Source of the DNA: Sialis fuliginosa
Taxonomy: Eukaryota > Arthropoda > Insecta > Megaloptera > Sialidae
Reading direction: 5' to 3'
Assembly: GCA_961205875.1 (NCBI GenBank)
Contig: OY540817.1
Coordinates: 744,001-808,000 of the forward strand
Length of the DNA stretch: 64,000 nt
The translations under genes were made by a program, and so were the position numbers. This document shows, piece after piece, positions 4,724 through 25,125 of this stretch. The notes beneath the pieces were generated by a model. The model did not search any database. It was not told where the DNA came from and worked only from the letters and a program-made list of their open reading frames with translations. Each line of letters opens with the position of its first letter. Positions within the stretch are counted from its first letter, which is position 1.

Positions 4724-4871
4724 TCCAACGATAATTTACTTTTAATATTGTATTGATAGACGATGATACGTATTGAAATGCGATTGACATCTAATACCAA
4801 CTGTGTTACAGTGTCATAGTGTGCTGCCAATTTAATAAAAATGAATAAATAATATTACAGCGTTGCCAAGA

Positions 4872-5539: not shown

Positions 5540-6045
5540 ATGGAAGTGTACGTATTAATATTAATTTTATTTATTTGTATTATTTACAAGATTTATATAA
5601 TAAATTATGTTTATTTAAAATTTTTAATTTTTCAGAATTACAATAGTCGAAGATAAAAAGGCTCCGGAAAAAAAAGATCCAAAAGAAAAAAAAGAGTAAG
5701 CATAAATTTTTTTCATAAAATAAGAGTTTTGGTTTTATATGTAATTGGTTTATTCACTTTCTTGTTTCAGAAAATCAGAAAAAAAAGAAAGAAACAAAGA
5801 TTATTGGCGGGGCTATAATAATAGAAAGGCCCCCCCAAAAAATTGGAGAGTCACACCATCGACCATCGACAAGTGGTCACCGGGGACCAACTCGAGGTGG
5901 TCAACGTGAACCATCTCAAGGTGTTCAATATGAACCAACTCGAGGTGTTCAATATGAACCAACTCGAGGTGTTCAATATGAACCATCTCTAGGTGGTCAA
6001 CGTGAACCACCTCAAGATGGAAGAAATATTATTATTTATATGTAG
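5540..6045 (+). CDS. Gene A: phase-2 microexon family member with octapeptide repeats
   Basis: Three exons fit: 5540-5547 (only 8 nt, ATG GAA GT before GTACGT), 5636-5695 (60 nt) and 5771-6045. Introns of 88 and 75 bp are canonical GT..AG and both are phase 2. The start MEVITIVEDKKAPEKK leads into a Lys/Glu-rich stretch, then NKDYWRGYN, the family motif. Exon 3 must shift by one base at the C7-A6 run near 5829-5841. After that shift the frame stays open through about five 8-residue repeats (YEPTRGVQ; variants REPSQGVQ, YEPSLGGQ) encoded by a 24-bp DNA repeat, and ends NIIIYM before TAG. Without the shift it stops after about 20 further codons. There is no signal peptide or membrane segment. 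The shift may be sequence error, decay or real. Related to genes B, C and D; function unknown. Confidence 0.6.
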
Positions 6046-6395
6046 TTTTTTGCCTTTTTTTTATATTAATATATAAAATATTTTTTTTTAAATGTGTTGT
6101 TTTGTTTTTATATTTACTTTAATATTTCAGGTTACAAATAAATAGTTTGTATCTTATAGGCATTTTAACTTTTTATTAAAAATAAATATTATCTGTCATA
6201 AACATTTTAGATAATTTTAAAACTTCAAAAATAAGTATAGACTTATTATATTAGCCAGAATTTAAAATTGTTTTTGTTGTACCGTTGTGAATTTTCATTT
6301 AGTTTTGGTTTCTTAGCTTTGATCTTTTAAAATATCTTTTTTCTAACTATTCTGGAACTAAACGAACATTTCTTTATTCATAATGAAAGGAACAA
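6046..6395. other. 3' flank of gene A
   Basis: AT-rich DNA with AATAAA-like hexamers (for example CAAATAAATAG near 6135) that could serve for polyadenylation of gene A. No other feature is seen before the satellite begins. Confidence 0.45.
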
Positions 6396-7432
6396 ATTCG
6401 TTTAAAAACTTTTGCAAAAATGTTCAATAAAACAGTCAAAGGTGATTTTTTTTTCACAAATATTTGTGTATAGAATAACGTACATACAATATAATCTGAA
6501 ACTTTTCAAACCTTTAAATCGCAATTTAGCGGAGATGTCAATGGATTAATTTCAATATACCATTAACGACACGTTTGCAAAAATGTTCAATAACGAGTCC
6601 AAGGTGATTTTTTTTTACAAATATTTGTGTACCCGTATAGAATACCGTAAATACAATATAATCTGAAACATTCCTAACCTTTAAATCGTAAGCGGAGATG
6701 TCAATGGATTATTTTCAATACAACCAATAAACGATAAGAATGTTCAATAAACAAAGGTGATTTTTTTTTCACAAATATTTATGTACCCGTGTAGAATAAA
6801 GTAAATACAATATAATCTGAAACTTTTCCAATCTTTAAATCGTAATTAAGCGGGGATGTCAATGGATTAATTTCAATATACCATTAACGGTACGTTTGCA
6901 AGAATGTTCAATAAACAGCCAAAGGCGTTTTTTTTCACAAATATTTATGTACACGTGTAGAATAATGTAAATACAATATAATCAGAAAATTTTTAAACCT
7001 TTAAATCGTAATTTAGCGGAGATGTCAATGGATTAATTTCAATATACCATTAACGATACGTTTGCAAGAATGTTCAATAAACAGCCAAAGGTGTTTTTTT
7101 TCACAAATACTTATGTACACGTGTAGAATAATGTAAATACAATATAATCTGAAAATTTTTAAACCTTTAAATCGTAATTTAGCGGAGATGTCAATGGATT
7201 AATTTCAATATACCATTAACGATACGTTTGCAAGAATGTTCAATAAACAGCCAAAGGTGTTTTTTTTCACAAATATTTATGTACCCGTGTAGAATAAAGT
7301 AAATACAATATAATCTGAAACTTTCCAAACCTTTAAATCGTAATTTAGTGGAGATGTCAATGGATTTATTTCAATATACCATTAACGATACGTTTGCAAG
7401 AATGTTCAATTAACAGTCAAGGGTGATTTTTT
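6396..7432. repeat. ~167-bp satellite, left block
   Basis: About six head-to-tail monomers. Landmarks recur in fixed order: TTTCAATATACCATTAACG, ACGTTTGCAAGAATGTTCAA, a T run, CACAAATATTTATGTACCCG, AATGTAAATACAATATAATC, and GGAGATGTCAATGGATT. Spacing of GAGATGTCAATGG in this block is 163, 158, 166, 166 and 165 bp. The two leftmost copies are the most diverged, as expected at an array edge. There are no coding frames. Confidence 0.95.
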
Positions 7433-8003
7433 TTCAAATTCTCGAATATTTTTTTGGCCTATAGTGCATGACAATCAAAAATCAGCAGATGCATCATGCT
7501 GTAGTCTGTAGCAACACGATTTCGAGCTTTGCTAGCAATGGTATTATTAAGGCTTTCGTTGGTATTTCTAGACGCACCGGCAGAATATTTCTCAGCATTA
7601 TCTCCCAATTTGTTAAAAATGTCTTTAAGGGGTACGAACAGTTTTGGACATCAAATCCTCCAGGTATAATTTTATGGTCATAGATTATCATGGTGATTAA
7701 ATGTGTGGTAAGGAATGTTTCGAACGGCGTTAGCCATAGTTTTACTATTAACGTTATTTTGAGTTACGGTGTATGTGAAATATCTATATGTAGATATGTA
7801 TACGATCTTTACCCAGTTCATGATGACTTTTCTGAATATTATATAGTTTTTTCTTTACTCCAGAAGAAGTATGATTAATGTCTGACTGTTTAATTATTGG
7901 GTGGTCACTTGCAGCTCGACAACTGCAACAGTTTAACTGTCATCATCACCCACCAAAACTCCACATTGAGCAAACGTGTTGTAATAATTGTTACGCAGTG
8001 TTT
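7433..8003 (-). pseudogene. Mutator-like transposase fragment, copy 2, inside the satellite
   Basis: This is a near copy of 1577-2147, with matching start (CAAATTCTCGAATATTTTT) and end (GTTACGCAGTGTTTTTA). It is joined directly to satellite monomers on both sides. The minus frame is broken by different small changes than copy 1; for example the residues after DHKIIPGGFDV read QNCSYPLKTF in place of PKLFVALKDIF. It clearly cannot code for an active protein. It splits the satellite into two blocks. Confidence 0.75.
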
Positions 8004-10398
8004 TTAATTTCAATATACCATTAACGATACGTTTGCAAGAATGTTCAATAAACAGCCTAAGGTGTTTTTTTCACAAATATTTATGTACCCGTGTAGAATA
8101 ATGTAAATACAATATAATCTGAAACTTTCCAAACCTTTAAATAGTAATTTAGTGGAGATGTCAATGGATTAATTTCAAAATACCATTAACGATACGTTTG
8201 CAAGAATGTTCAATAAACAGCCTAAGGTGTTTTTTTTTCACAAATATTTATGTACCCGTGTAGAATAATGTAAATACAATATAATCTGAAACTTTTCAAA
8301 CCTTTAAATTGTAATTTAGCGGAGATGTCAATGGATTAATTTCAATATACCATTAACGACACGTTTGAAAAAATGTTCAATAAGCAGTCAAAGGTGTTTT
8401 TTTTCACAAATATTTATGTACCCGTGTAGAATAATGTAAATACAATATAATCTGAAACTTTCCAAACCTTTAAATCGTAATATAGTGGAGATGTCAATGG
8501 ATTTATTTCAATATACCATTAACGATACGTTTGCAAAAATGTTCAATAAACAGTCAAAGGTGATTTTTTTCCACAAATATTTATGTACTCGTGTAGAATA
8601 ATGTAAATACAATATAATCTGAAACTTTTTAAACCTTTAAATCGTAATTTTGCGGAGATGTCAATGGATTAATTTCAATATACCATTAACGACACGTTTG
8701 CAAAAATGTTTAATAAACAGTCAAAGGTGATTTTTTATCACAAATATTTATGTATCCGTGTAGAAAAATGTAAATACAATATAATCTGAAACTTTTCCAA
8801 TCTTTAAATCGTAATTAAGCGGGGATGTCAATGGATTAATTTCAATATACCATTAACGATACGTTTGCAAGAATGTTCTATAAACAGCCAAAGGTGTTTT
8901 TTTTTCTCACAAATATTTATGTTCCCGTGTAGAATAATGTAAATACAATATAATCTGAAACTTTTCAAACCTTTAAATTGTAATTTAGCGGAGATGTCAA
9001 TGGATTAATTTCAATATACCATTAACGATACGTTTGCAAGAATGTTCAATAAACAGTCAAAGCGGTTTTTTTTTTTTTTAAATATTTATGTACCCGTGTA
9101 GAATAATGTAAATACAATATAAACTGAAACTTTTTAAACCTTTAAATCGTAATTTAGTGGAGATGTCAATGGATTAATTTCAATATACCATTAACGATAC
9201 GTTTGCAAGAATGTTCAATTAACAGTCAAGGGTGATTTTTTTTTCACAAAAATTTATGTACTCGTGTAAAATAATGTAAATGCAATATAATCTGAAACTT
9301 TTCAAACCTTTAAATCGTCATTTAGTGGAGATGTCAATGGATTAATTTCAAAATACCATTAACGATACGTTTGCAAGAATGTTCAATAAACAACCTAAGG
9401 TGTTTTTTTTTTCACAAATATTTATGTACCCGTGTAGAATAATGTAAATACAATATAATCTGAAACTTTTCAAACCTTTAAATTGTAATTTAGCGGAGAT
9501 GTCAATGGATTAATTTCAATATACCATTAACGATACGTTTGCAAGAATGTTCAATAAACAGTCAAAGCGGTTTTTTTTTTTTTTTTAAATATTTATGTAC
9601 CCGTGTAGAATAATGTAAATACAATATAAACTGAAACTTTTTAAACCTTTAAATCGTAATTTAGTGGAGATGTCAATGGATTAATTTCAATATACCATTA
9701 ACGATACGTTTGCAAGAATGTTCAATTAACAGTCAAGGGTGATTTTTTTTTCACAAAAATTTATGTACTCGTGTAAAATAATGTAAATACAATATAATCT
9801 GAAACTTTTCAAACCTTTAAATTGTAATTTAGCGGAGATGTCAATGGATTAATTTCAATATACCATTAACGACACGTTTGAAAAAATGTTCAATAAGCAG
9901 TCAAAGGTGTTTTTTTTCACAAATATTTATGTAGCCGTGTAGAATAATGTAAATACAATATAATCTGAAACTTTCCAAACCTTTAAATCGTAATATAGTG
10001 GAGATGTCAATGGATTTATTTCAATATACCATTAACGATACGTTTGCAAAAATGTTCAATAAACAGTCAAAGGTGATTTTTTTCCACAAATATTTATGTA
10101 CCCGTGTAGAATAATGTAAATACAATTTAATCTGAAACTTTTCAAACCTTTAAATCGTAATTTAGTAGAGATGTCAATGGATTAATTTCAATATACCATT
10201 AACGACACGTTTGCAAAAATGTTCAATAAACAGGCAAAGGTGATTATTTTTCACAAATATTTATGTACCCGTATACTATAGAATAACGTAAACACAATAT
10301 AATCTGAAACATTCCTAACCTTTAAATTGTAACTATGCGGAGACGTTAATGGATTAATTTCAATATACCAATAAACGATAAGAATGTTCAATAAACAA
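8004..10398. repeat. ~167-bp satellite, right block, with higher-order repeats
   Basis: About fourteen monomers with GAGATGTCAATGG spacing of 165-172 bp. Variants recur in order. The monomers at 8993 and 9162 match those at 9499 and 9670 (a long T run after CAGTCAAAGCGG, then CTCGTGTAAAATAATG), giving a roughly 507-bp three-monomer higher-order unit. The 8158-8660 series matches 9331 followed by 9838-10170. The last copy is diverged and stops at 10398 beside a MITE. Confidence 0.95.
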
Positions 10399-10415
10399 TA
10401 CACATTATGGTTATA

Positions 10416-10786
10416 CAGTAGAGCATCCATTGTCCGAATACCGATCAACCAAAACATTGGTTAACCGAAAGCGTCCCAGTCAATAAATTCAAATTTGCAC
10501 GCAATGTAAAATGTAAAAGCGAGTGACAGCTCTGAACTCAAGAAAATTTTGGACTTCTTTTCGTAAACTGTAGACCCACTTTAATTTATTACTTTTTGTA
10601 AAGTTATTTGTAAGATGTGTGATACAAAATATATTCAGTTTTGTGTTTAATATCTCTGTTTCTTTGTTTCATATTGCTCTATGGCACTGGTAATTTTTTT
10701 TTCCTAAGTGATCAGTTATCCAAAAAATCAGTTAACCGAACATCCCCGCCTGTCCCATATTGTTTCGAATAATCGATGCTCTACTG
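10416..10786. mobile_element. Tigger/pogo-type MITE, 371 bp
   Basis: Terminal inverted repeats CAGTAGAGCATCCATTG and its imperfect complement (CGATGCTCTACTG) are flanked by TA on both sides, the target preference of Tc1/mariner/pogo elements. There is no coding capacity. CAGTAnAnC-type termini are typical of Tigger elements, and a Tigger transposase remnant is present at 21799-22310. It inserted next to the satellite edge. Confidence 0.8.
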
Positions 10787-11124
10787 TACGTGATAATCGC
10801 CAGCAATTATATAGAATGGCTACTCAAAATATTTATTTATCAATATATCACATGTATTATAACTTTTTTTTTATAAAAATGTAATCTGATTGTCAAACTA
10901 TTTTAATTATTTATTAATCAATAATGTTATTGAAGAAATATTAGAGTTTATTGTGTGAATACCATATTAACAAATACATAAAATATATAATATTTATTGG
11001 ATATTTAAATTTTAAGATTCTCTAAAAGAATAATTATTGACAGATAAAAATTTCATGACTATATTAAATAAACATTTAACTTATCAATTTTCATATTTAT
11101 TTTAGTATATGTAAAATATAATAA
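10787..11124. other. AT-rich intergenic DNA
   Basis: I see no gene or recognised repeat. Confidence 0.55.
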
Positions 11125-11210
11125 ATAAAAACAACTTGTTTGTCTAAACGTTAGATATTATATAAAAAAAATTTATAAACGCAAGCTTTCGATTCACAGA
11201 ACAAAATGTA
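11125..11210 (-). repeat. Penelope-type terminal-repeat fragment
   Basis: AAACAACTTGTTTGTCTAAACG and, after a gap, CGCAAGCTTTCGATTCACAG match the terminal repeat of the Penelope-like element at 45200-45565. On minus it retains the GAAA box and stem II of the hammerhead motif but lacks the CUGANGA box, so it cannot be an active ribozyme. Confidence 0.65.
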
Positions 11211-11445
11211 AGAACGATATGTACCTATCTATAATTGCCAGCTAGGTATATTTATAAACAAAAATACTTTAAATATTTCAGTTAGTACCTATAATTTTTG
11301 TAAATGAAATATATTTTTCAAGACATATCTTATATACACTGTTTAAAATTTGTAAACCAAAAATTCATAAAATCTAATATAAAATAAAACACGTTTTCAA
11401 ATATAAAAAGAACAAATATATATTAATTAATATAAATTACATACT

Positions 11446-11939
11446 CTATGACATGTAAATGTTAATAACTGATGGTCCCGGACCACCTTTATTTGTGGTG
11501 CGGTGTGCACCACCGCGACCATTTTTAAACGAACCGCGGTGTGCAACACCGCGACCACGTTTATAAAAACCGCAAGAACCGCGGTATGCGCCACCGCGAC
11601 CACGTTTACTACCGCGGTGTGGCCCGGCACCACCTTTAAAATTTATCCAATAGTTTTTTTTTTTTTTTTATTTGTTTGTTTTTCTGGTTCATTCTCTCTG
11701 AAACAAGAAAATATAAATATTACATAACTACTTACAAAAAAATTACAAAAAACTGCTTACTTAATTATTTTTTTTTCGGATTTTTCATTTGTAGAAGATT
11801 TATTTTCTATTTCGTTTCTGAAAAATAGTTTTTTTTAAATAGACATTGTATCATTAATAAACTATATAAATAAATTAAATTAAATTATTAAAACTTACAT
11901 ATCTGGCATTTTCTCGTCCACGACTTTTTCGTTTTCCAT
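11446..11939 (-). CDS. Gene B: phase-2 microexon family member with RGG-rich tail
   Basis: Exons on minus are 11939-11899 (41 nt), 11817-11761 (57 nt) and 11697-11446. Donors GTAAGT and GTAAGC and TTTCAG acceptors are canonical, and both introns are phase 2. The start is MENEKVVDEKMPD, then Lys/Glu/Asn-rich sequence, then a poly-Lys run coded by A16. One extra base in that run gives NYWINFKGGAGP and an open frame to TAG through repeated G(R)G units such as KRGRGGAYRG and KRGRGVAHRG, ending VINIYMS. As written the frame stops just after the A run; exon 3 is 252 nt and needs 253. RGG-like tails are known to bind RNA or protein, but a role here is inference. No signal peptide. The first 14 coding bases are identical to gene C. 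Confidence 0.6.
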
Positions 11940-11965
11940 TTTTTAAATCAATGAAATGTTTTATT

Positions 11966-11980
11966 AAATTTCATTTGTTC
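11966..11980 (-). promoter_or_regulatory. Upstream motif shared by genes B and C
   Basis: On minus, GAACAAATGAAATTT lies 27-41 bases before the ATG of gene B. Gene C has GAACAAAAGAAATTT 43-57 bases before its ATG. It may be a conserved 5' leader or promoter element, or simply residual similarity of young paralogues. Confidence 0.4.
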
Positions 11981-12380
11981 TTTAATTTTTTTAAACGATG
12001 CCTTTGATCTAACTTGATTTTAAAAAGTTTAAAAATTCAAGTTTTAAACCATTTTTTAAAATATATAATTGGTTTGAATCTTGAATGAAGCGTCACCTGT
12101 TTATAATTTTGTATGTCTCAAAATGTTTGTCTGTTTTGAAAATTGTTAAAGAGATATATAAAATAGAAGATATCACAAAATGTGAAAATTATCACATAAT
12201 TATCGTCAGACAGGTATGTCAACATAATACTTATGATATACTTTTGATTTGAAACCATTATTTTAGGGAATTGTTTGGTGAATTTTAAATGTAATTGTTA
12301 TTTCGTATTAAAATTTAAAGTGTTTCAAAACAGCTGTTAATATAATGATGGAATGAATTAAAATTAATGACATTCGATTA
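11981..12380. other. AT-rich upstream region of gene B
   Basis: No frame or repeat is recognised. It should contain the gene B promoter. No clear TATA element was fixed. Confidence 0.4.
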
Positions 12381-12590
12381 TACCGGGTGTTCCAGTTTAT
12401 TTTTGTTGTGCAATGGCTGTATTTGCCCTGTTCGTTTAACTCGTTCCGTTAAACGAACAAATGATTTTCTGGAAGGGTGTTGTCTACCAGGATATCTTTC
12501 ACCATAAAGGCGACTTGCAGCAGCAGTGTTTTTTTGGCACTCACCTAAGTCCATGAGCATATCGATAGCTTCTTCGTTAGAGTATAACAT
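12378..12590 (-). pseudogene. DUF4817-type transposase N-terminus
   Basis: The minus frame MLYSNEEAIDMLMDLGECQ continues with AAASRLYGERYPGRQHPS and SFVRLTERVKRTGQIQ. This is the characteristic (Y)xxERYPxRxxP helix-turn-helix domain found at the start of these transposases. About 70 residues remain before the frame runs into the terminal repeat, so the DDE catalytic domain is absent. Related pieces are at 20874-21194 (N-terminus) and 37045-37385 (C-terminus). Confidence 0.75.
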
Positions 12591-13190
12591 AATTACGATA
12601 AAAGTAGATATTTATTTTTACGTGGCACGCAAAGAATTAACTGAACTTTGTGTACGAGAAGCCAATTTGACACAACATAACATAGCAAATATTTTTCGAA
12701 TTTTTTTTTTCTCAAATAAGCCTACTTATAAAATCAGAATAATATGGGTAAGTGTAAGAATATATCATTCATATTTCATTTAATTCTTACTTTTATTTTC
12801 TTAAATAGGCTTAAACAATTGTTTTGTAATTTTATTATTAAAAAAATAGTTCATTTGTTTTCTGAATTCAATTGTTTATTGCGTATTATTCGTACATACC
12901 ATAGAGAAACAGGAAAAGTCTTATTATTTCTGTAACGGTTAGCGTTACAAAAAAAATTTCTTAACAAAAGTTGTTAATTTTAATATATTTTTTAAGATAA
13001 AGTACTAATTGATATATCATACCATTTAAATTTTTTGAAATATCCCCAATTGAACTTTTGTATTTTTGATACGTCGCGTCTGATACTTTAAACTATCGAA
13101 ATCTCAAATGTCCATACATCATTAGAAAGTACATTATTTCTACTTTCTAAATTAAAAACATAGTGGACGGGTGGTCTGGAACACCCGGTA
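12381..13190 (-). mobile_element. Short TIR transposon with HTH-transposase remnant
   Basis: TACCGGGTGTTCCAG at the left is matched by its exact complement CTGGAACACCCGGTA at the right, 810 bp apart. This terminus style is common for insect mariner-related elements encoding a DUF4817-type helix-turn-helix transposase. The element is internally deleted and keeps only the transposase N-terminus. Confidence 0.8.
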
Positions 13191-13914
13191 TATGAAATTA
13201 TGTATTATTTATGGTATGTATTATTTGATTTTTTAATTATACATTTATTAAAATTTGTTAAATGTAATATAACATGTTATTTTTTGCTTCTTTTAGATTT
13301 ATTATGTTTTCTCTTAAAGGAAAACTGAAAATAATAATTCTATAGTATAGCTGTAGGACAGATTTGTATAACATATTAATTTGAAATAGAAACAGAAGAT
13401 ATCGGATGACATTTCATTAAACTATAACAATCAGATTTTAAAGTTGCTAATTATTGAAAATCGTTTATAAAGGTATTTGTATATTTGTTATTTGTATTTG
13501 TATTATTTCGATCTATTCGTTGAGTCTTTCAGCAATGGAAATCCAAGTAGGGACAGTAAAACCTCTATAATTCAAGATAAAGAGGTTCTCGACTTGAAGA
13601 GAGTTTCATGTTATAAAAATTGCAAGAACCCACCTCCTGTGTATCCCTGACATTAGGGGTTGAATGAAATTTTTTTAAAGACTCGAAATAATGAAACTTG
13701 CAGTAGTTTTCTTTTTGGATCTCATGATAGCGACTGAATGCAGAATAAAACAAATGTCTTACATAAATGTATGATACAAAATTAATGGCATATGTTAACA
13801 GTTTATGTATTGTATTGTATTGATAACATTTAATCCGAGAAATATTTGACACTTATTTCGTGATACAAGTATCAAAGTATTTTTGTCGCAATTCTTTTTG
13901 GTGTAAACAGTATA
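13191..13914. other. AT-rich DNA with a half Tigger terminus
   Basis: ACAGTAAAACCTCTATAATT at 13555-13574 looks like one Tigger-type end, without a convincing partner. A 95-codon minus frame at 13565-13852 has no recognisable features and is probably chance. Confidence 0.45.
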
Positions 13915-14557
13915 CAGTAAAAGCTCTTTATTCGCGGGGTATATGTTCCATAAATATTCCGCGAATACAGAAACCGTGAATACGGAATGGTAATTTATAT
14001 GGGATTATAGGGGATACGTTCCTAGGTGACAAAATAAATAAACAAATACAATATAAAAAAATCAATTTAATTGAAGTTTTTGACCATATTGATTAATTAT
14101 TATTTTCAGGCTTAGGCAATGGTTTAAAGAATTTTGTAATTTTTTCTTGCTTGGCAGTTTTTAAAAGCTCCATCAATTCAGATCAATATATTTCCTAAAG
14201 GGCTTAGTGAATCAATTTAATATTTTATCTATTGCATAAGAATGCTATTGGGAACATTCCAACCAATTATCATATATTTGGTAGCATTTTGAAATACATC
14301 CCATACATCCTTAACAACATACTTTAGGCAAAGTTGTAATAAGGTCTATTTTACTTTTTTATTAGTCCATTTGACGGCGTTTACAAAGGATATTGGGTTG
14401 GATACCTATTAGAATCCTTTTTATTATTATGTATGTACTGATTAGATCCGCGACTAAAGAAATCTTTAGCCGCGAATATAGGAATCGGGTCGCATTTTTT
14501 TAATCCGCGAATAGTGACAACGCGAATGAAGGAAGCGCGAATAAGGAGTTTTTACTG
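13915..14557. mobile_element. Tigger/pogo-type MITE, 643 bp
   Basis: CAGTAAAAGCTCTTTATTCG at the left pairs with CGAATAAGGAGTTTTTACTG at the right, flanked by TA on both sides. Sub-terminal inverted copies of CGCGAATA-type sequence extend the arms. There is no transposase frame. Confidence 0.85.
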
Positions 14558-14781
14558 TATGCTATTTAGTGTCAGACGTTAGACATAAATGTTGCGATAG
14601 AAGTATCCTGGTGTAAACAAGGCTTAAGACACACCAATATAGTATTATATTTCATTTAAAATAACAACTGTATCGTATTACATTTACAATAAAAATTGAC
14701 TACCTGAAATAAATTTTAAGAAAAAAATTATTAACAATGTTTTATAATGTAAAAAAATAAATTTATTAAAAAAAAAGACAA

Positions 14782-15618
14782 TTAATAAAACGTCATGTTG
14801 TAGACATGCCCTCCTCCTCCTCTGTTTCCTCCGTTGCCTCTATTTTTGGAACCTCCACGCTTACCGCGAGGCCCTTTGAAATTAATTTTATTTTTTATTT
14901 TTTTCATGGCCTCGCCGTAAGCCGCCCAATAAATTTTGTTTTGTTGTTTTCTGTAAAATAAAAAATTATAGATGAAATGAATGAATGGCTCTTAATACAA
15001 TTTAAATAATTATATATTTTTTATATGTTTAATTATATACTCACTTGGTATTTTCGATTGGTTTTTCTCTGAAAAAAATAAAATAAAAATTATTTATACA
15101 ATATTTATTTATTCAGGGTTTTTGCTACGTCAATACAAATAATTTAATGCAAATTAGAACGGGTCATTTGGAAATAATTTAAGCAAAATAAGTATATGAG
15201 TGCAACAGTTTTTTATATAGGTCATTTTAGTAAATTTTTGTGGTACTTTGTGAAGATCCTACCAAAAATATGGCTGCACTTTAATATTTGAAAAAGTATA
15301 ATATTGTGAAAAAATTGATTCTTTAAAAAATAATTTTAAAAACCTAGCAGAAATGATTTAAAAAAAATGCTCTTTTTTTATAAATATTTTAAAATATTTG
15401 TATAGCCGTATCAAATACCCTGTATATAAAAACAATACCCTAATATTATAAAATATACTTACAGCTCTCCTTTTCTTGGAGGCTCCTCTTTTTTTTCAAT
15501 ATTTTCGCCTTTTTGAGTTCTGGAAAGTATATATTTTTTTAAATAAACCTATTTGTATAATATAAATACTCGTGAATATAAATAAAAACACTTACACATC
15601 CATATTTTCGTTTTCCAT
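14782..15618 (-). CDS. Gene C: phase-2 microexon family member, intact
   Basis: Four exons on minus, 15618-15596 (23 nt), 15519-15463 (57 nt), 15068-15045 (24 nt) and 14950-14782, join into an uninterrupted 90-residue frame. Donors are GTAAGT, GTAAGT and GTGAGT, and acceptors end CAG. All three introns are phase 2. The protein starts MENENMDVTQKG, is Lys/Glu-rich through residue 36, then has KIYWAAYGEAMKKIKNK, followed by a Gly/Arg-rich tail (GPRGKRGGS, GNGGNRGGGG) and ends YNMTFY. There is no signal peptide or hydrophobic segment, so it is probably cytoplasmic or nuclear (inference). A TATAAA lies about 60 bases before ATG on minus, and AATAAA lies just past the stop. Exon 2 has exactly the length of exon 2 of gene B. 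Function is unknown. Confidence 0.72.
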
Positions 15619-15660
15619 TTTTTTTTATACTAAAATTACTTTCAATTATTTTATATCAAC

Positions 15661-15675
15661 AAATTTCTTTTGTTC
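15661..15675 (-). promoter_or_regulatory. Upstream motif shared by genes B and C
   Basis: On minus, GAACAAAAGAAATTT lies 43-57 bases before the gene C ATG, just downstream of a TATAAA at 15678-15684. It corresponds to 11966-11980 in front of gene B with one mismatch. Confidence 0.4.
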
Positions 15676-15965
15676 TATTTTATAAAGAAAAACAAACTAG
15701 ATTATTTTATTTAAAATTGTCAATTCGATTTTCAAACAAATAAGATTCATATCTTTAATGTTCTGTGGTGTTGCCACTAATTATTTTAGTAAAATATCTT
15801 CTGATCACGTGAAAATATAATATTAATTATGATTAAAAATAAATTTATTTTATTATAATTTGAATAATTTTTCAGTAAATTTCTTTGTTAGCCATTTATA
15901 ATTTTTATTTTTTTATTTATTTATTAATTATTATAATTTATATAATCAATCGCAATCACACTCAC

Positions 15966-16230
15966 GTCAATACCAAAAATAGAATCTGATATAATGCTTT
16001 CATTGCGTTGCGGTGTGGGTTTCTGCGGTTCGTTGATGTGAGACGGTTTCGGGGGCTCTGATGTAGGTGGCCCTCGCGGCTTACGATCCCTCTTTGCTCC
16101 AATCTTGTCGGGATTGAAGTTCTCGGGTTTGCCTCTGTATTTTGGCGCGATCTTCTTGATCTCGTCCATGGAATACACCTTCGCTTGGTTGTCCATTTTG
16201 CGTTGTTTACGGTTGTTTTGTAAGCTTTTT
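15966..16230 (-). CDS. Exon of an unidentified conserved-looking gene
   Basis: The minus exon is bounded by GGTAGCAG at 16231-16238 and by a strong GTGAGT donor at 15965-15960. From an ATG at 16196 it encodes 77 residues beginning MDNQAKVYSMDEIKKIAPKY, then RGKPENFNPDKIG, a Pro/Lys-rich linker (PPKPSHINEPQKPTPQ) and RNESIISDSIFGID, where the phase-0 donor falls. The frame is also open upstream of the ATG to the acceptor. GC content and residue balance are well above the surroundings, so this looks like a genuine host-gene exon. YSMDEIKK resembles a short helical binding motif followed by disorder, but I cannot name the protein. No later exon could be placed to the left. Confidence 0.6.
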
Positions 16231-16625
16231 CTGCTACCAGTTACCGAAAATTTAATGAAAAAAACGGCGACTTTATTTACAGCACCAAAAGAATATTCTC
16301 TGGCACATTGCGTTATAGAAGATTTTCGGATGGGGGCTGGAATTGCAGTTACATTCAGGTAAAATATTTAAATAATCCAGGCATATGGAGTGTGTTTTTC
16401 ATTAGATAAATATGCACCCTCCTTTTTCTAACTATTCCACTATAAAAAAGTTTCTGACAACTAAATTCAAATTAAATAAATAATAAAATACATAAATAAT
16501 TATAGACAGATTCTAGGTAACACAAATTTACGTTTTGTGGTCTATTGACTGGGGGGTACAGGTAGGTTAAATGATATAACCCTTAACCTCTACAGCGGGC
16601 GTGGACTGTTTTTGATCGTATAATG

Positions 16626-18343
16626 GTATAGGGTCAATCCATATGAACTGGTCCAGCACTGGTTGCTCGATCATTCTAAAAAAAATTGATTTTTTGTGTG
16701 TAATTACCCTAACATGTTGGTAGTTCGAAACGACCATTATTTTAATTTTATTGTTTTTTGTTTTCGCGTGACGGCCATATTTGTTCTACGGGTCGCATCA
16801 TTATTTGTACTTTAAAGGGTTAGCGGAAACTAAAATATCTCAGCTTCTATTAAACCTTTCAATACGGGACTAAAAGCAAATTATTCAGAATAAAACGGGC
16901 TACAAGATTACTTCTGAACATTTTCACCTAAATGTTATCCTAAAGGGTGAATGTTCAGCCTTAATTCTTAGTTCTATTTTTGAAAAAATCCCATTTTCAA
17001 GGGGATGTTTTTGCAAGAAGGGGAAAAGTCAACAAGTCGAATTATTTTTTACAAATAGGTGGGTACTAGTTGTATTCACACACCAAAGTTCAACTCTGAG
17101 ACTTGCCGCCCTTTATTTTAAAAAATTCTCAAAATTTAAAAATTCGAGAAAATGGCACTTTTCAAAGCTAAATAACTCTGGTGGGGGACCAGATAAAAAT
17201 CTGAAATTTTAGGCCATAATAGTACTACATAATGGTATTATGTACCAAAAAATTTGAGATTGAGATTTGACTACAAGCAGTGGTATTGCAACTACAAAAA
17301 TGCATGTTTCAATGAGCGTATACATGTGGTGATTTTGTTTCAATAATAATTAAAACATGTTATATCTTTGTTATGAGTTACTTTAAGTTATTATATGTGT
17401 TATAAATTTTTAAAGCTGACCTAATTTTTTATCTTAAAATAAAATATATATAGGGTGTCACCTTTGAGAAACAAAAGTTGACATCATTTCCGGTTCAACC
17501 GGAAGTGACAGAAAATAAAAAATGAGATTTTAAAAACATTTAGAAAAAATACAATTTTTTTCTTCATTCAAGCATTGTTCATTTTCCAAGAAAAAAAAAG
17601 ATAGTAATAGATATTATATTAATGTTGACACTCTGTATTAACATATGAACTCCTATTGAATATTGTGGTTGCAATATCACTGCCTGTAGTTAAATCTCAA
17701 TCTCAAAAATTTTGGTACGTAATACCATTATGTAGTACTATTATGGCCTAAAATTTCAGATTTTTATCTGGTCCCCCACCAGAGTTATTTAGCTTTGAAA
17801 AGTGTAATTTTCTCAAATTTTCAAATTTTGAGAATTTTTTGAAATAAAGGGGGGCAAGTCTCAGAGTTGAACTTTGGTGTGTGAATACAACTAGTACCCA
17901 CCTATTTGTAAAAAATAATTCGACTTGTTGACTTTTCCCCTTCTTGCAAAAACATCCCCTTGAAAATGGGATTTTTTCAAAAATAGAACTAAGAATTAAG
18001 GCTGAAATTTCACCCTTTAGGATAACATTTAGGTGAAAATGTTCAGAAGTAATCTTGTAGCCCGTTTTATTCTGAATAATTTGCTTTTACTCCGATGTTG
18101 AAAGGTTTTATAGAAGCTGAGATATTTTAGTTTCCGCAAACCCTTTAAAGTACAAAAAATGCTGCGACCTGTAGAACAAATATGGCCGTCACGCGAAAAC
18201 AAAAAACAATAAAATTAAAATAATGGTCGTTTTGAACTACCAACATGTTAGGGTAATTACACACTAAAAATCAATTTTTTTTAGAATGGCCAAGCAACCA
18301 TTTAATTTAATTTTGGACCATTTCATATGGATTGACCCTATAG
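16626..18343. repeat. 1.7-kb foldback palindrome
   Basis: TATAGGGTCAATCCATATGA at the left is mirrored by its complement at the right. The arms, each about 680-700 bp, match almost throughout: for example the CGCGTGACGGCCATATTTGT region at 16766 mirrors 18178, and GGTCCCCCACCAGAGTTATT mirrors the 17180 region. A roughly 300-bp unmatched centre holds no frame. It lies upstream of the 15966-16230 exon on minus and would fall within an intron if the exons near 18.4 and 19.2 kb belong to that gene. It resembles a foldback transposon or inverted duplication. Confidence 0.9.
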
Positions 18344-18371
18344 TAAATTTATAATAAGTTAAACTACTCAC

Positions 18372-19189
18372 AGTTTGTCCTGCTTGGTGGTTCCGGGACT
18401 GCATCGAGTGAATTGTATTAAGGTTAGGAGAAAAGGGGATGATGGAAATACAGTTTCACTTTTAACAATACACAAAACACATAACATAAAATAAAAGATA
18501 ACTTAAAATTTATTCACTTTTAATTGTTATGGTAAATAAGATATATGTATATCACAAAGGTGTGATAAAATAAAAAATATATTCTAATTTTAATGCACAA
18601 AGGGTGCAAACTGTGCGGATAGTTTATTTATAAGTAATAAGGGCATTAGCAAATGCTACTTAATGCTGCCTTTTCAATACTGTTCTGATTTAAATCTATT
18701 GCACGAAAACCAACATGTTTGCTCCTAACAAGAAATAACATGTAAAACTATAAAAATAAAATTAATTATAAACTTTATTTGGCAGTGGCGCCACCATTGA
18801 CTATACCCGTAGTTAAAGGTTAAAATCTGAATATTACGTTCTCGTAACTTTCCTTTGAAGTGATGAGTGTTTTAGTATCTTCTTGTGAATTCGTATTTTG
18901 TTTCGCTTTGTGTTTTTTCTTTTATATTACTGGTGTACTGTGATTATTGTTTTATTTTTGGGACGTTTCTCTTATTTTATTATCTATTTATTTTACGAAA
19001 TAATGCATAATTACATGTATGTACCTATTTACTATACACATAAAGTTAGCAATATGTCATGTTTGTATTTTTTTTAAAGAATATTTGTAAATAAACACAA
19101 AACTAGATCTAATCTAATTAGTAAATAAATTAATTTGTAAAACATACCTGCCACCCAATTTCTTGTATGTGTAATTGCTGGACATTCAT
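18372..19189 (-). CDS. Candidate two-exon gene start, unidentified
   Basis: On minus, ATG at 19189 opens a 42-nt exon (MNVQQLHIQEIGWQ) ending at a GTATGT donor (19147). A 27-nt exon at 18398-18372 (SRNHQAGQT) lies between GATGCAG and GTGAGT. Both are phase 0 and join in frame. The exons are short and were picked by splice sites and composition, so the call is tentative. Joining on to the 15966-16230 exon would place a stop after eight codons, so either they are different transcripts or the upper exons would be a leader there. Confidence 0.3.
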
Positions 19190-20873
19190 TTTTTAATTAG
19201 TTTTTTTTATAAAACACGGCACAAATAAAATAAATACCAATTTTGAAGTTTTTGATTTTTTTTTAAATTTTGTATTACGGAAAAATCTTATAAAACGCAT
19301 TTCATTAGAAGCGTCATATACTACTTTATATTTGTGTAAAATTTCAATACTATCTTTAGTAACAAAAAAGTTATCGATTTTTGGTCCGAAACAGACCTTT
19401 ATTTTCCACAGTTTTTTACACGTTATTTAAAACACCGTAACGAAGGTGTATACAAAAAATCAGCTAACTGCTAATTTTTTCGCAGATTGAATGAATTAAT
19501 ATCTAAAATTGCTGGACTACAAGTCAATTTTGTATTATTTGCCTCACAAATATTTTTTTTCTTGTATTTATTTGAGTAATACAAACGTTACCGAGAGAAA
19601 GACCTCGATTTTTCCGTTGCTGCGTGTAGTATGGATCTCCCGCTTACTTGTTACAAATCACACAAAGATCATTAAAGTTGAATTGGGCATGCCATGTTGT
19701 CTGTTTGTTTCTGAAGGTGATAAATTATGTTGATTTGCTTTCTTTTTTTTAGCTGCAGTAATATTTTATACTATTACATAAGATTTGTAACAGCTATCAC
19801 GCACTTTAAGGCTTCCAACACTGTTCAAATTTTGTTGTTTTCCATCATCCCTTTTATTTTATTTGGAGATTAGCATTTATTATAGTTTGAACACTTTTTT
19901 GTTTCACTATTTATATCTTTTATGCAAAAGAAACACGTTCTCATTATGATTTATTTGAGGTTGTGTTTTTGTTAATATTATTTTTTAATTTTATGTAGAA
20001 TGTTGTATTTTATAAAATTATTCTGATCTTCGAAAATATCAATTCTTTTATCAGTAGTTAAAAATTCGAGTTAGCGAGGTCGCTAAATTACTCCCCTCGC
20101 AGTAACTTGGTACATCTATATATTAAGTTACGATCTCATAAAAAATGACAAAAAATAGTAAACTTTGAATGGCTATAGCTTAGCCAATTTTCACCGAAAT
20201 TTTTTTTTCGACTCACCATTTTGACGTACGTGATCTCTTTTTTTTATTCAAAGCATACCCTATACCTATCTTTACTCAGAAAAAAGTTATAAGCAATTTA
20301 GTAGAAATTTGTGACTGATATTTTTTCGATTTGTTTTTTAAATATTTCTTGCTTAATTTTTTAAATACATTCATTTTTATGCGAAATTCAATTTTCTACA
20401 AAAAATTATCTAGTAAAATTGTCCTATTCTGCTTAATTTTCAAGTTATATTTAAAACATTGTTTTGTCAAACAAATATATAAAACAATAAAAATCCTTTA
20501 ACGCAATTGTTCCTTTCTACCTCTTATTTTCCGGTATAATCAATAGCCTATTAACTGGCACTCAAAGTTTAGGAAAAATTACAATTCCTAAATGAAAATG
20601 TACTATTAATTTAGTATTACAATAATTTACAGACTTATTATACAAATTATAATATTTTGTTTAAAAATGCGCATAGTACATAAATTTTTATTTATGAAAA
20701 GTAATTTTTCTTATTTGAGTTCCAGTTGACTCAGTGAATAAAAAATGTTTGAAGAAAGAAGCATCTTCTTGCATTTTATTTCTGGTCCAATTACGAAATT
20801 GTAAATGCTTTATAAAATCGCTATCACTTAATTAATTCCTAGTGCATTTGAATGTGATATGATGAAATTTTTT
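19190..20873. other. AT-rich intergenic DNA
   Basis: No gene is supported. GAAGGTGTATACAAAAAATC near 19444 with CAGCTAACTGCTAATTTTTTCG resembles the arm of the foldback at 42211-42770. A 74-codon plus frame at 19509-19733 is unremarkable. Confidence 0.45.
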
Positions 20874-21194
20874 TTAAGATTCGACCAATTCTAGTCTATT
20901 TATTTCTACTAATGAGTTCACTTCTCTCCGACTAATATGGGGATCGTCAATCGTTGCCAGCACAACAGATATATAATTTCTTTCGTTCTTAACATTTTTA
21001 ATTCGTTCACGTTTTTCATATTGTACATTGCCGGTTTCCACAAATTTATCAAGCAGGTTTTGGAAGCTATCAACTTTAGGGAGCCTTCGTTCAGAATACC
21101 GTTGGTGGTAAATTCTATTGGCAATCAAACAATTTTTTTCCGACTCACCCAAAACAAAAATCATGTTTACAAGTTCTTTTTTATTAAAATTCAT
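20874..21194 (-). pseudogene. DUF4817-type transposase N-terminal fragment
   Basis: The 106-codon minus frame starts MNFNKKELVNMIFVLGES. It contains ANRIYHQRYSERRLPKVD, FQNLLDKFVETGNVQ and TIDDPHISRREVNSLVE. These are the two helix-turn-helix blocks (YxxRYxxRRxP and DPHISxRE) that open this class of mariner-related transposase. The catalytic part is missing. It belongs to a different subfamily from the 12.4-kb fragment. Confidence 0.7.
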
Positions 21195-21798
21195 TTTGAA
21201 AAACTAATACTACAAATAAAAACTGATGGTCGATAAATGCGAGAAATGTTTGTTTGACGTTTGTGCTAACAAACAGTAATAATCGTTGAGGAGGGAAGGG
21301 GAAGGGACAAATTAATGTCTGCTGGGAAGTCCCTTGCAGCCATCATTTTCGGTTTGGAAAAAAATAAAAAAATGTCCAATTCTAATTCTACATTTAACAT
21401 CCTTTATTCGTGCTATAATTTTTTTATTTACTTCGGAGCCCCCTACAGGCGCCAAAGAAATAGGGTCAAATTCTACTGGTTTAGATCTACATTTTGTTAC
21501 CACACATGCCTTAGTAAAAAAAATAATTTTATGCTTAGCTTTAGTTCCGTGGTACTCCCTCTAAAAAAATTAATTTTTCAATTTTTTTTACATTTTTATC
21601 TAGCAGGCACAACTTCATATGTTTAGTAAAATTTTCAAGTTTGTAGCTGATATAGTTTACGAGATATTATGCTTTAACTAGAAAGAACGGACGGGCGTAC
21701 AGACAGACGACAAAGTAAGATAGAGTTTCTTTGGAACCTTAAATGACAACTATATAATTATATCGATAAATTGCTTGATAGAACGATACGATATATTG
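21195..21798. other. Repeat-derived intergenic DNA
   Basis: The stretch around 21680-21745 (GAACGGACGGGCGTACAGAC, then TTTGGAACCTTAAA) is the tail of a common dispersed insect repeat. A similar tail occurs at 49665-49735. Overlapping frames on both strands at 21312-21626 carry no recognisable domain. Confidence 0.45.
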
Positions 21799-22310
21799 TC
21801 AGAACACGCCTGGTGTGTTCTCAGCACTGAATGGGTTAAACATTTCACTAGTCATCCTAGCTTTTCTTTGATTCATATAAAATACAGGCAAAGATTTTTC
21901 ATTTTTTAAAGATCGAGGTTTCGCAGATTTGCCAATTATAACGAGAGGTAATTTACAAGTACTAGAGGCATTAGAACATGCCATTACTGTTACAGCTTCT
22001 TTACATCCCTTTGTACCAGCCGGCGATTATTTTGTTTTTTCACATAAGGTTATTTTAGATAATAAGTTATAAAAAAGTCGACATTCATCAGCATTAAATA
22101 CTTGATGAGGTGTCAGTCCCTCTTTTTCGACATAATTTACAAATTTTTCTTTGAACGGATTCACAGCTTCTGAATCAGCTGATAACTTTTCACCATAAAT
22201 CGCTTTTGATGAGATTCCGTAATTGTTTTTCCAACTTCTTAACCATCCATTACTAGCAGTAAATGTGTTATCCTCGTTAATTATGCACTAAATTTTAATG
22301 GTTTGGTTTT
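21799..22310 (-). pseudogene. Tigger/pogo DDE transposase fragment
   Basis: On minus the frame reads NEDNTFTASNGWLRSWKN (CENP-B-type HTH end), then LTPHQVFNADECRLFYNLL, in which FNADE is the first catalytic aspartate block of DDE_1 transposases. It continues to VMACSNASSTCKLPLVIIGK and PRSLKNEKSLPVFY, the usual Tigger continuation. Stops interrupt it (for example just after the region coding for LCEKTK) and the second and third catalytic acids are gone. Together with the two Tigger-type MITEs it shows that this superfamily was active here. Confidence 0.75.
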
Positions 22311-22394
22311 AATCATGAGTCCAGAAATAGGTATTCTTGAAGCACGTGCCGTTTTAACTATATCCACACAGCCTTGTTGATGTTATTGTATCGT

Positions 22395-22620
22395 TGATCG
22401 AAGATAACTTGACAGCACTGTTTTTAATGGTAGCCTTGATAAATAGTGTGTAGCGCAACTGCTCAAGATATACAGAAAAATCTTCTACACTTCAGTTTAT
22501 TAATCTGTAAATCTTTAGCAACTCCATATAATAATACTGTGCAGTACCTGCCGGCTTCTAAAATTTCATCCAATTCTGAGGTATTACTGCAAAAAATCTC
22601 GATATGTTCTCTTTTTCGCA
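22395..22620 (-). pseudogene. Duplicated fragment of the GCDTTS-family pseudogene
   Basis: The sequence from GATCGAAGATAACTTGACAG to CCAATTCTGAGGTATTACTG is a close copy of 25480-25680, part of the C-terminal half of the pseudogene at 25126-26420. It is joined directly to Tigger sequence, giving a chimeric remnant. Small indels break the frame. Confidence 0.75.
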
Positions 22621-22769
22621 CTCGTTGAAAAACTATTTTTCCAATCTCTAGACATTACTAAATCATGTCTTTATTTCAAATACCTGTAATTTATAATTAT
22701 AATGAATGGATAAAAAAACACTCAGTTGGAAATTTAATATTTATATTTCTATATTATATACATATTTAT

Positions 22770-22828
22770 AATAAAAACAAACTTGTTTGTTTAAACGTCA
22801 AAATTTATTAAAGAAGAGGAAACCGCAA
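22770..22828 (-). repeat. Penelope-type terminal-repeat fragment
   Basis: AAACAAACTTGTTTGTTTAA ACGTCAAAATTTATT followed by AGGAAACCGCAAG matches the terminal repeat at 45224-45285. It is cut by the foldback element that starts at 22829, so the hammerhead motif is incomplete. Confidence 0.65.
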
Positions 22829-23864
22829 GAGAAAAATTAGTGTAACCAAAATTGTACGATACGAAGGGGGCTATCATATAGCGATAATAATTTTTGTCCA
22901 GGGGGAGGCTCTTCGGAGATATTAAGGTCATCTTCATTTTTTAAAATTGATTCGGTACTTTTTTTTCCATAATATGATAGAGGAGCTGAAAACAAGTTCT
23001 GAACTCATCACACAAGATCATTGAACAAGATTTAAAGTGAAGAAAAAACGATTGAAAAATACATTTTTTTATTAAAAATTTACATTTAAAGAAGATGTTC
23101 GAAGTGGTGGTCATCATTATTATTATTAGTTGAAATTTCACACAGTTGTTTAAACACTCAGTATGAATGACATACTAAAATTTCAGATTTTTTGACCATT
23201 TCGTTTTTAAGAAAATGAATTGTAAAGTCTAGTTGTAAATACATGGCGTTAAATGGCAGTTGATAAAAATTGATTGTTAAAATATAGAAAAATGATAAAA
23301 ATCAATTTAAAAAACAGTAAGATAGTTTTGAAAAATAAGTATATTGTAAACTATACATTAATGTAACTATTTAAACAAGAATTACACATTTTGACCACAC
23401 CATTATTAAGAAAACAGTAAAAGAAACATGAAAAATATATGAAATTATGTATAAATATTTGAAATTAATGCGTAACATGGCAACGGGCCTTGCATTGTAA
23501 AATGACAAGTAATGACAAATACATGAGTGCAAGTGAGAAAGACAATTCGTAGTTTAGGCAACCGAATCTGCGTCTTACCCCACCGTCTTCCCCTCAAACG
23601 TAACTTCCCAACCTTCTTAATAAAAAATTGTATTTTTTAATCGTTTTTTCTTCACTTTAAATCTTGTTCAATGATTTTGTGTGATGAGTTCAGAACTTGT
23701 TTTCAGCTCCTCTATCATATTATGGAAAAAAAATGTACCGAATCAATTTTAATAAATGAAGATGACCTTGATATCTCGAAAGTGCCTCCCCCTGAATAAA
23801 AATTATTATCGCTATATGATAGCCCCCTTCGTATCGTACAATTTTGGTTACACTAATTTTTCTC
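22829..23864. mobile_element. 1.04-kb foldback element
   Basis: Arms of about 230 bp mirror each other: GAGAAAAATTAGTGTAACCA at the left and its complement at the right, then the GGGGGCTATCATATAGCG, GAGGAGCTGAAAACAAG and TTTAAAGTGAAG landmarks in reverse order. The centre of about 550 bp is AT-rich with no frame. It interrupts a Penelope-type terminal repeat on its left and lies about 70 bp from the 3' end of gene D on its right. Confidence 0.85.
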
Positions 23865-23931
23865 TGGGCCTTATAGATTCGAAGATATGTAAGGTGGTAA
23901 TAGTTACTGCCTCACCCTGTATATTTATGAA

Positions 23932-24500
23932 TTACATTATGAAAAAAAACGAATATTTTTTGGTGATACGATGGCCTCCGCTCCCACCACCACGCCCTAG
24001 TCTGTGTCCTCGTGCACGGGCATCACTGCGGTCTTTAGATTGGTTAATATTTTGTGATTTTATACGCGCCATCGCGAAGTCATATCCACGCCAAAAGTCG
24101 CTGTTTTCTTCTATCACTCGATCTTCTTTCTTGACCATTCTATAACAAATTTTTTTTTAATATAAGTAAAGTAATTAATAAATTAAAAATTGAAGGATAC
24201 GTACTCAACGTCTGCTTTACCATCGCCATCGCCACTTATTCTGAAACAGAAAAAAAATTAATTATTTAACGATACCCTTACAATTACATTAAATTATTTG
24301 AACGATGATTGGTTAGAGCGATTAACATTATTCTTAACAGACAAATTATACTTTTAAAATATTTTTTTCATGATTTTAATACTTATCAATTCTATATAAG
24401 ACTACATGGAATTAAACAAAAATTAAACATGTGATAAATTGATAACAATTATTAATTGAATAAACAAACTTACGATTTTTGATCGTCAGTGCTTCGAGTT
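23932..24500 (-). CDS. Gene D: phase-2 microexon family member, 5' end uncertain
   Basis: Three minus exons join in frame: 24500-24474 (27 nt), 24240-24205 (36 nt) and 24139-23932. Donors are GTAAGT and GTACGT, acceptors GTAG, CAG and ATAG; every junction is phase 2. The coding part reads TRSTDDQKSISGDGDGK, then MVKKEDRVIEENSDFWRGYD and FAMARIKSQN, followed by an Arg/Gly-rich tail (ARARGHRLGRGGGSGGH) and an end of KKYSFFFIM. The motif (D/I)(F/Y)Wx(A/G)YxxAMxxIK is shared with gene C. A possible 8-nt first exon, ATGTTAAA at 24821-24814 before GTAAGA, is in the right phase but weakly supported. Translation could also begin at the in-frame Met early in the last exon (24138). Confidence 0.58.
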
Positions 24501-25125
24501 CTACATTAATTTCTATAAAATAAAACAATTATTTATTTAACTAACAATATTATTAATCTATATTGTAAATGTTCTGTTTTAATTAGGTTTTATAAAATGA
24601 AAAGAATTATAATAAACTTATATATTTAATTGTTTCCAACATGTGCTCGCTGCCACAGTCCGTCCTCTGCAGTCTATTAGACAACGTTTTATAACATAAA
24701 CATTTATTCTTATTTTATTTATTTATTCAAGTTTGGCTAAGGGGCTACGCCCGATGGCCAATAACTTAAATAAAATAAAAAAATGATTTATAATTACCTA
24801 ATCCATATCTTACTTTAACATTAAATATACCACAGTAAATAAAAATTAAACATATTCGTTCAACATTTTGAAGAACAGTGGGCTCTAATTTTACTTTCAG
24901 CGTCATTATAATTAGTTCAGTTAATAAAAGTAAACTACATATTTAAAAACCTGACAATTTTTTGAACATGCATCGATTTGCATGAAAATTTAGGATTAAG
25001 CTCGTCTTACCCTCGACTTCAAAAGTGACCCTATGCCAATGTGTGCTTTTTATTTTTTAGGGGTGAAAATAGCCCCTATTTAAAAAAAAATAGAAAACTG
25101 AGGATTTAACAGATTAAAAAAAAAA
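24501..25125. other. Upstream region of gene D, repeat-bearing
   Basis: AT-rich sequence with a retroelement tail at 24715-24775 and the tentative gene D first exon at 24814-24821. Nothing else is supported. Confidence 0.4.
24715..24775 (-). repeat. Non-LTR retroelement 3' tail
   Basis: On minus, TTATTGGCCATCGGGCGTAG followed by CCCCTTAGCCAAACTTGAAT and an AATAAATAAA tail has the look of the 3' end of an insect non-LTR element or SINE. There is no coding sequence. Confidence 0.5.

Follow-up and report, generated by a model that had tools for sequence, protein, structure and literature searches.

The window considered here is a 64,000-nucleotide stretch of the megalopteran insect Sialis fuliginosa (C9:744001-808000 in a 392-Mb, 20-contig assembly). 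It contains four small genes or gene remnants, A to D, built from very short exons, whose relatives form a dispersed multigene family grouped near chromosome ends. In A-type and D-type copies of this family conservation is inverted, the introns lying nearer to one another than the exons do. A preliminary description of the window had presented A to D as a local family of four related genes with uniformly phase-2 introns.

Gene models in the window

Gene A, on the forward strand, comprises an 8-nt exon 1 with a phase 2 donor (5540..5547), a 60-nt exon 2 (5636..5695), a conserved intron 2 (5696..5770) and a last exon in which the frame of the YW motif (5771..5909) runs to a stop at 5907-5909; the tail of 24-nt repeats ending in NIIIYM belongs to a different frame across this exon (5719..6045). 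The other three genes lie on the reverse strand. In gene B exon 1 (41 nt, 11899..11939) and exon 2 (57 nt, 11761..11817) lead into a last exon whose spliced frame (11643..11697) stops at 11645-11643. The YW motif of B and its Gly/Arg-rich tail, ending in VINIYMS, occupy a different frame (11446..11667) with its own stop before a poly-A run. Genes A and B may be pseudogenes or may carry assembly errors at homopolymers. Gene C is the sole intact gene of the four and encodes 90 aa in exons of 23 nt (15596..15618), 57 nt (15463..15519), 24 nt (15045..15068) and 169 nt (14782..14950), the last containing the YW helix and a Gly/Arg tail; the block surrounding it (14558..15914, reverse strand) is common to copies on C9, C12 and C4 at 91-93%. 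The 39-nt upstream exon of gene D (24474..24512) carries a TAA (24508-24506) in the sole frame that fits the next exon, and its start is unplaced. Exon 2 of D (36 nt, 24205..24240) is open in phase 2 only, and an ATG opens the last exon (23932..24139), which is open from 24138 for 68 aa.

The four loci lie at the places given in the preliminary description, and its small exons, GT..AG introns (~63-394 nt) and phase 2 are present in the sequence. Four working proteins are not, given the broken frames of A and B and the stop and unplaced start of D; the proposed union of YW motif and tail in one protein is likewise found in C, but not in A or B, where the two features or the splicing fall in different frames. 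Most of the splice sites used are the best locally under a matrix of generic splice-site frequencies; weak ones are the last acceptor of D (2.1), its second donor (4.3) and the first donor of A (4.9).

Because the splice sites had originally been chosen partly by phase, both strands were scanned phase-blind for chains of ATG, exons and introns ranked by splice score. At strict thresholds, fixed once the splice scores were known, the scan returns A and C only, both uniformly phase 2. Over 150 dinucleotide shuffles the same thresholds averaged 0.053 loci per strand, none of them uniformly phase 2, while 30 separate shuffles yielded one locus in total, uniformly phase 1. Looser settings return 8, 15 and 40 loci over the two strands, many in other open reading frames (ORFs); the shuffle means for the first two are 0.52 and 2.64 per strand, so that the window is several-fold higher. 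Since loose chains are common, only the strict result is informative and the loose scan proves little. Chance chains of microexons as the origin of the gene models are weakened by the comparison of the strict scan with the shuffles. Retention of intron 1 of A as a hydrophobic coding piece was considered on the sequence alone; intron 1 of C begins with an in-frame stop.

Relatedness and protein features

At the DNA level A, B and C are related, none of 200 shuffles reaching the score in any of the three pairs, but D is not (115, 27 and 28 of 200 shuffles reach its scores against A to C). Motif-window scores link A, C and D, with 0-1 of 2000 shuffles as high, whereas the window of B is weak, its scores against A, C and D being reached by 167, 41 and 849 of 2000. 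The kinship claimed for all four therefore holds for A to C by DNA and for A, C and D by motif.

Twelve last-exon rows, some with the tail cut, align around [YF]W..[YFH] with an invariant W. The last exon encodes a short conserved stretch around [YF]W..Y, predicted to be helical, followed by a fast-changing and usually Gly/Arg-rich tail; Gly+Arg make up 31-34% of the tail and the pI is 9.6-9.9. For the last exon of C a single-sequence model predicts one helix at residues 6-22 and coil for the remainder (mean pLDDT 62.1). By hydropathy, as distinct from a signal-peptide predictor, the starts of A, B and C lack a hydrophobic leader (the highest-scoring 10-aa stretch among the first 45 aa reaches 0.42 in A, -0.84 in C and -0.47 in B), which speaks against ordinary secretion. 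Neither C nor D contains cysteine, and the CYC motif is thus absent. In a typical intact gene a charged leader is spread over two or three tiny exons with phase-2 junctions, and the last exon provides the helix, the tail and a short conserved end.

Copies across the genome

Four protein probes were run against the window's own genome, and all counts are lower bounds. The search gave at least 46 rows, 31 of them with E<=1e-3; merging two overlaps leaves at least 29 matches, at least 25 of which lie outside the window. They are found on C1, C3, C4, C9, C12 and C13, so the family is not local as first described. Among the matches listed 28 of 29 are no farther than 1.1 Mb from a contig end, in a zone that makes up at most 11% of the genome; as the matches are clustered and the limit was picked once their positions were known, it is fairer to count five clusters at ends (C3, C4, C9, C12 and C13) versus one internal locus (C1). 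All four types are represented on C9 and again on C4. TTAGG repeats are present at five of the six contig ends read (C9, C13, C12, C7 and C4), the exception being the end of C3. Recent segmental duplication between chromosome ends is evident: about 7.9 kb is held in common by C9 at 0.57 Mb, C9 at 1.09 Mb and C12 at 0.94 Mb with 99.1-99.9% identity, and the boundaries of homologous blocks differ from pair to pair.

Several copies, here numbered with the prefix L, are open. The A-type copy L038 encodes 96 aa with phases 2,2 and L036 encodes 146 aa when spliced. Three near-identical C-type duplicates (L002/L009, L003/L010 and L004/L011) encode one 94-aa open protein, and C-type L006/L012 has a 2,2,2 chain with a tail frame that differs from other C-type copies. 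A fully open B-type gene was found at none of five loci examined; phase 2 does lead into the YW frame in L047 and L048, but exon 2 of L047 has 53 nt. Leaving aside the D-type copies and L050 (acceptor unplaced), the acceptor before the motif is placed in 19 copies, and in 14 of these it opens the YW frame in phase 2 (A-type 4/7, B-type 2/4, C-type 8/8, three of the last near-identical). Uniform phase 2 thus stands for A and C in the strict scan but not for the family. In D-type copies exon 2 is retained in four of nine aligned rows, where it measures 36, 30, 36 and 27 nt and is open in phase 2. The suggestion that exons can change without breaking the frame agrees with exon-2 lengths that vary in threes (60/60/87/69 in A-type, 57/63 in C-type), but not with A-type L034 (82) and L035 (53) or B-type L047, which are frame-broken. 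Two further D-type observations may be added: L028 (C9:494969-498103, forward strand) has a 365-aa open frame with a long Val-Arg-Glu/His-rich repeat tail, unlike the Gly/Arg tails, and L023-L026 (C13:309029-314891, reverse strand) are units in tandem, with the FWRG motif twice within one open frame of L023.

The family has no relative in the databases searched, in line with the earlier remark that no standard family explains it. In Pfam the best hit of C is API5 at E 4.2, which is no real match, and D and the B tail have none; NCBIfam gives zero matches for C and D, and the best PDB entry for C is a ribosomal protein at E 0.62. A protein database returned 2 candidates for C, none at E<=1, and 237 for a four-row alignment (C, D, A and the start of B), none at E<=10; the same database does contain relatives of an ORF neighbouring gene C. 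No close relatives of the C or L038 protein are found in IMG/VR. Nor did a literature search, mostly at the level of titles and the openings of abstracts, reveal a family recognisable as the A-D type.

Introns more alike than exons

Seven A-type copies were compared in 21 pairs, with L037 left out as a copy of L036. Pairwise divergence is 1.4-6.7% in their introns (3.4% when pooled) and 4.7-31.9% in their exons (18.8% when pooled). The excess of exon over intron divergence reaches p<0.05 in 17 of 21 pairs, the exceptions being A-L033, L036-L034, L034-L033 and L035-L033. When A/T sites alone are considered and L033 is left out, the excess is kept in 11 of 15 pairs, which weakens base composition as the cause of the fast exons. 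Intron 2 of A, used as a genome probe, retrieves the same eight A-type loci at 95-100% identity and nothing else; a dispersed repeat can therefore be rejected. Between D and L022 the introns differ at 12/292 positions (4%) and the exons at 34/139 (24%; p=1e-9). Fast exons beside near-identical introns are a stronger signal than any in the preliminary description, from which they were absent, and its picture of small, fast-evolving genes that form a family and have tiny phase-2 exons, symmetric for the most part, is supported.

In the A-type core synonymous divergence is 0.377 and non-synonymous divergence 0.151, both above intron divergence. The ratio dN/dS is 0.22 for C-L004, 0.55 for the last exon of L038-L036 and, among D-type copies, 0.14-0.56 across those pairs (18 of 21) whose dS is finite, all estimates from short sequences. 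The dN/dS check that had been proposed thus reports amino-acid constraint rather than diversifying selection. The distances of intron 2 show no correlation with those of the last exon (Spearman 0.08; Mantel 2089 of 5000), which is read as separate histories of introns and exons.

Other features of the window

Immediately upstream of gene C lies a conserved-looking ORF (15966-16203, reverse strand) that reaches a strong-looking GTGAGT donor. Splicing of this ORF into gene C was considered on the sequence alone; by a hand count the ORF meets the donor in phase 1. Its database relatives P0001 (53% identity, E 7e-15) and P0002 (46%, E 3e-9) are, like the ORF itself, without a Pfam family, and its stretch (window 15914-16248) is absent from the matching duplicates L009-L011. 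Elsewhere the window holds a tandem array of ~166-171-bp units (6408-10375) with an insertion at ~7.5-8.0 kb that resembles 1.67-2.15 kb, an inverted repeat of 638 bp (16660-18300; 95% complementary, arms 365 bp apart) and, as far as the window end, a tandem array of 517-520-bp units that each contain an ORF (61590-64000). Transposon-like ORFs encode a Mutator-like transposase (4259-4735, reverse strand) and an HTH_Tnp_Tc3_2 transposase (28122-28631, forward strand), and reverse-transcriptase matches occur at 43466-44056 (reverse strand) and at 56671-57216 (forward strand), the latter below the Pfam cut-off.

Interpretation

Taken together, these observations suggest intron homogenisation and exon exchange between chromosome ends. 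Ectopic recombination between the ends would homogenise the introns, while divergent exon segments would be exchanged between ends or kept; the common phase 2 would render most exon swaps frame-neutral, and many copies would decay. As to the product, an intracellular, candidate nucleic-acid-binding arms-race protein is favoured with low confidence. The protein may act within the animal's own cells, its helix docking on a partner and its basic tail binding nucleic acid, and the opponent in such a conflict could, equally tentatively, be a changing virus, transposon or selfish repeat. We give about even chances to the whole of this reading, that is, a chromosome-end family shaped by intron homogenisation and exon exchange and encoding an intracellular conflict protein.

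Several observations weigh against it. Exon 2 of D versus L021 reverses the pattern, with 1/30 differences against 9/64 in the next intron. C-type exons are more diverged than introns in all five well-aligned pairs, significantly so in only two (C-L011, p 0.0066; L011-L013, 0.0031; C-L012, 0.31; C-L013, 0.089; L011-L012, 0.22); C-L014, C-L015 and L011-L015 were excluded because much of their alignment is at random identity. The A-type pairs and the clustered copies are not independent, three of the seven A-type copies are frame-shifted at the motif, and the zone of 1.1 Mb was drawn after the fact. In five of the 19 copies (B, L033, L035, L041 and L049) phase 0 is the only one that fits the YW frame. 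Values of dN/dS below 1 do not point directly to diversifying selection, nor do they demonstrate simple positive selection. The structure model, at a mean pLDDT of 62, is of low confidence, the nucleic-acid-binding role is proposed from composition, and any function of these genes, which are modelled from sequence, is putative.

A serious rival, if an unlikely one, holds that the introns are under selection, for microexon splicing or as a regulatory element, and that the exons merely diverge at the normal rate of old duplicates. Intron 2 of A-type copies is only 0-6.7% diverged in all 21 pairs, and the flanks of L038 are far more diverged than this (upstream 16-54%, downstream 9-57% in six comparisons), as selection on the intron would have it. 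Intron similarity, to which the favoured reading appeals as well, also spans types: introns 1 and 2 of A-B and intron 1 of A-C align above all 200 shuffles, and exon 2 does so less clearly (15 of 200 shuffles reach the A-B score and 8 the A-C score). Steady constraint would, however, keep intron and exon distances tracking one another, and their lack of correlation counts against it. In addition, the flanks of C are as conserved as its introns in comparison with L011 and L012, four folded introns show no more structure than shuffled sequence does (z 0.6 to 1.0), and Rfam gives zero matches at the gathering score in the window. Structured RNA is accordingly rejected or at least weakened for the four folded introns, as are Rfam families for the window.

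It is distinctly unlikely that the proteins are effectors secreted into a host in the manner of gall-midge SSSGPs or aphid bicycle proteins, but by a pathway that dispenses with the classical signal peptide. The SSSGPs likewise combine conserved introns with variable coding sequence (PMC2955719), the published classifier of bicycle gene structure gives gene C a score of 0.87 against a cut-off of 0.72 (hand-computed from the published coefficients), and bicycle homologues of phylloxerids and coccids are reported to lack obvious CYC motifs. Yet the starts of A, B and C have no hydrophobic stretch by hydropathy, C and D have no cysteine, the four exons of C fall short of the minimum of five and mean of ~17 described for bicycle genes of H. 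cornu, and dN/dS is below 1 here where the tabled SSSGP pairs exceed it. More doubtful still is the reading that the copies stem from a mobile or repeat-borne sequence, are decaying and serve no function today; it would suit the broken frames of A, B, L034 and L035, the stop in D, the exon 2 of L047 and a window rich in transposon ORFs, but not the open frames of C, the trio L009-L011, L038 and L036, the dN/dS of 0.22-0.55 in open pairs (C-L004 and L038-L036), the varying ends of homologous blocks or a conserved intron that matches eight A-type loci only and is thus no common dispersed repeat.

Comparison with known systems

The SSSGPs of the Hessian fly form clustered multigene families in which introns and other non-coding parts are conserved and coding sequence is highly variable; the SSSGP-2 group has ~950 coding nt and 35 introns, and a conserved signal-peptide region is described together with dN/dS >1 in the pairs tabled (PMC2955719). 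Compared by description rather than by sequence, conserved introns and variable coding sequence recur in 17 of 21 A-type pairs, in D versus L022 and in two of five C-type pairs, while the hydrophobic leader is absent by hydropathy and dN/dS lies below 1. Aphid bicycle genes share small phase-2 internal exons, rapid divergence and a structure that outlasts sequence (PMC9168663, PMC13041983). The internal exons of A-D and the classifier score of C resemble them, but C has four exons, no signal sequence is apparent from hydropathy and the CYC motif is lacking. Bicycle proteins are also characterised by a saposin-like fold, and the last exon of C is tentatively modelled as one helix and coil. As the preliminary description had concluded, the A-D family are not bicycle genes as defined.

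Similar introns with differing exons, as in the A-type and D-type copies, are also described for the three-finger toxin genes of viperid snakes, where paralogue introns are highly similar and exon segments are exchanged, a process termed ASSET (PMC2474615, PMC2711939). Those genes, by contrast, encode secreted disulphide toxins in three exons, and their abstract describes neither microexons nor clustering at chromosome ends. The micro-exon genes of schistosomes have very short exons too; their products are secreted and their introns extend to 5 kbp in the account cited (PMC10526429), whereas the introns of A-D are far shorter and a hydrophobic leader is absent. In the LRR genes of Tetrahymena with 90-bp exons, the symmetric exons show an extreme phase-2 bias, recent expansions are reported to be mainly subtelomeric and pericentromeric, and ectopic recombination is proposed to have shuffled the exons (PMC6564038). 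Phase-2 symmetric exons and subtelomeric expansion are common to both, but the ciliate genes are arrays of leucine-rich-repeat exons and their protein type is unrelated. It is highly doubtful, if conceivable, that the Sialis family plays, within the cells of an animal, the part that variant genes play in subtelomeric systems. Its protein repertoire would then be diversified by phase-2 exon cassettes swapped between chromosome ends, with near-identical introns as recombination landing sites, and would serve in a conflict inside the organism rather than by secretion at a host.

Conserved introns beside changeable exons are thus already known from venom toxins and from the effectors of gall insects; selection, hypermutation and gene conversion confined to non-coding parts are the candidate causes. 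New here is the occurrence of the pattern in small proteins without a hydrophobic leader and across several chromosome ends. As copies of differing age at several ends are available in one assembly, these competing causes are testable. If the genes are expressed, they would point to an unrecognised class of fast-evolving intracellular proteins.

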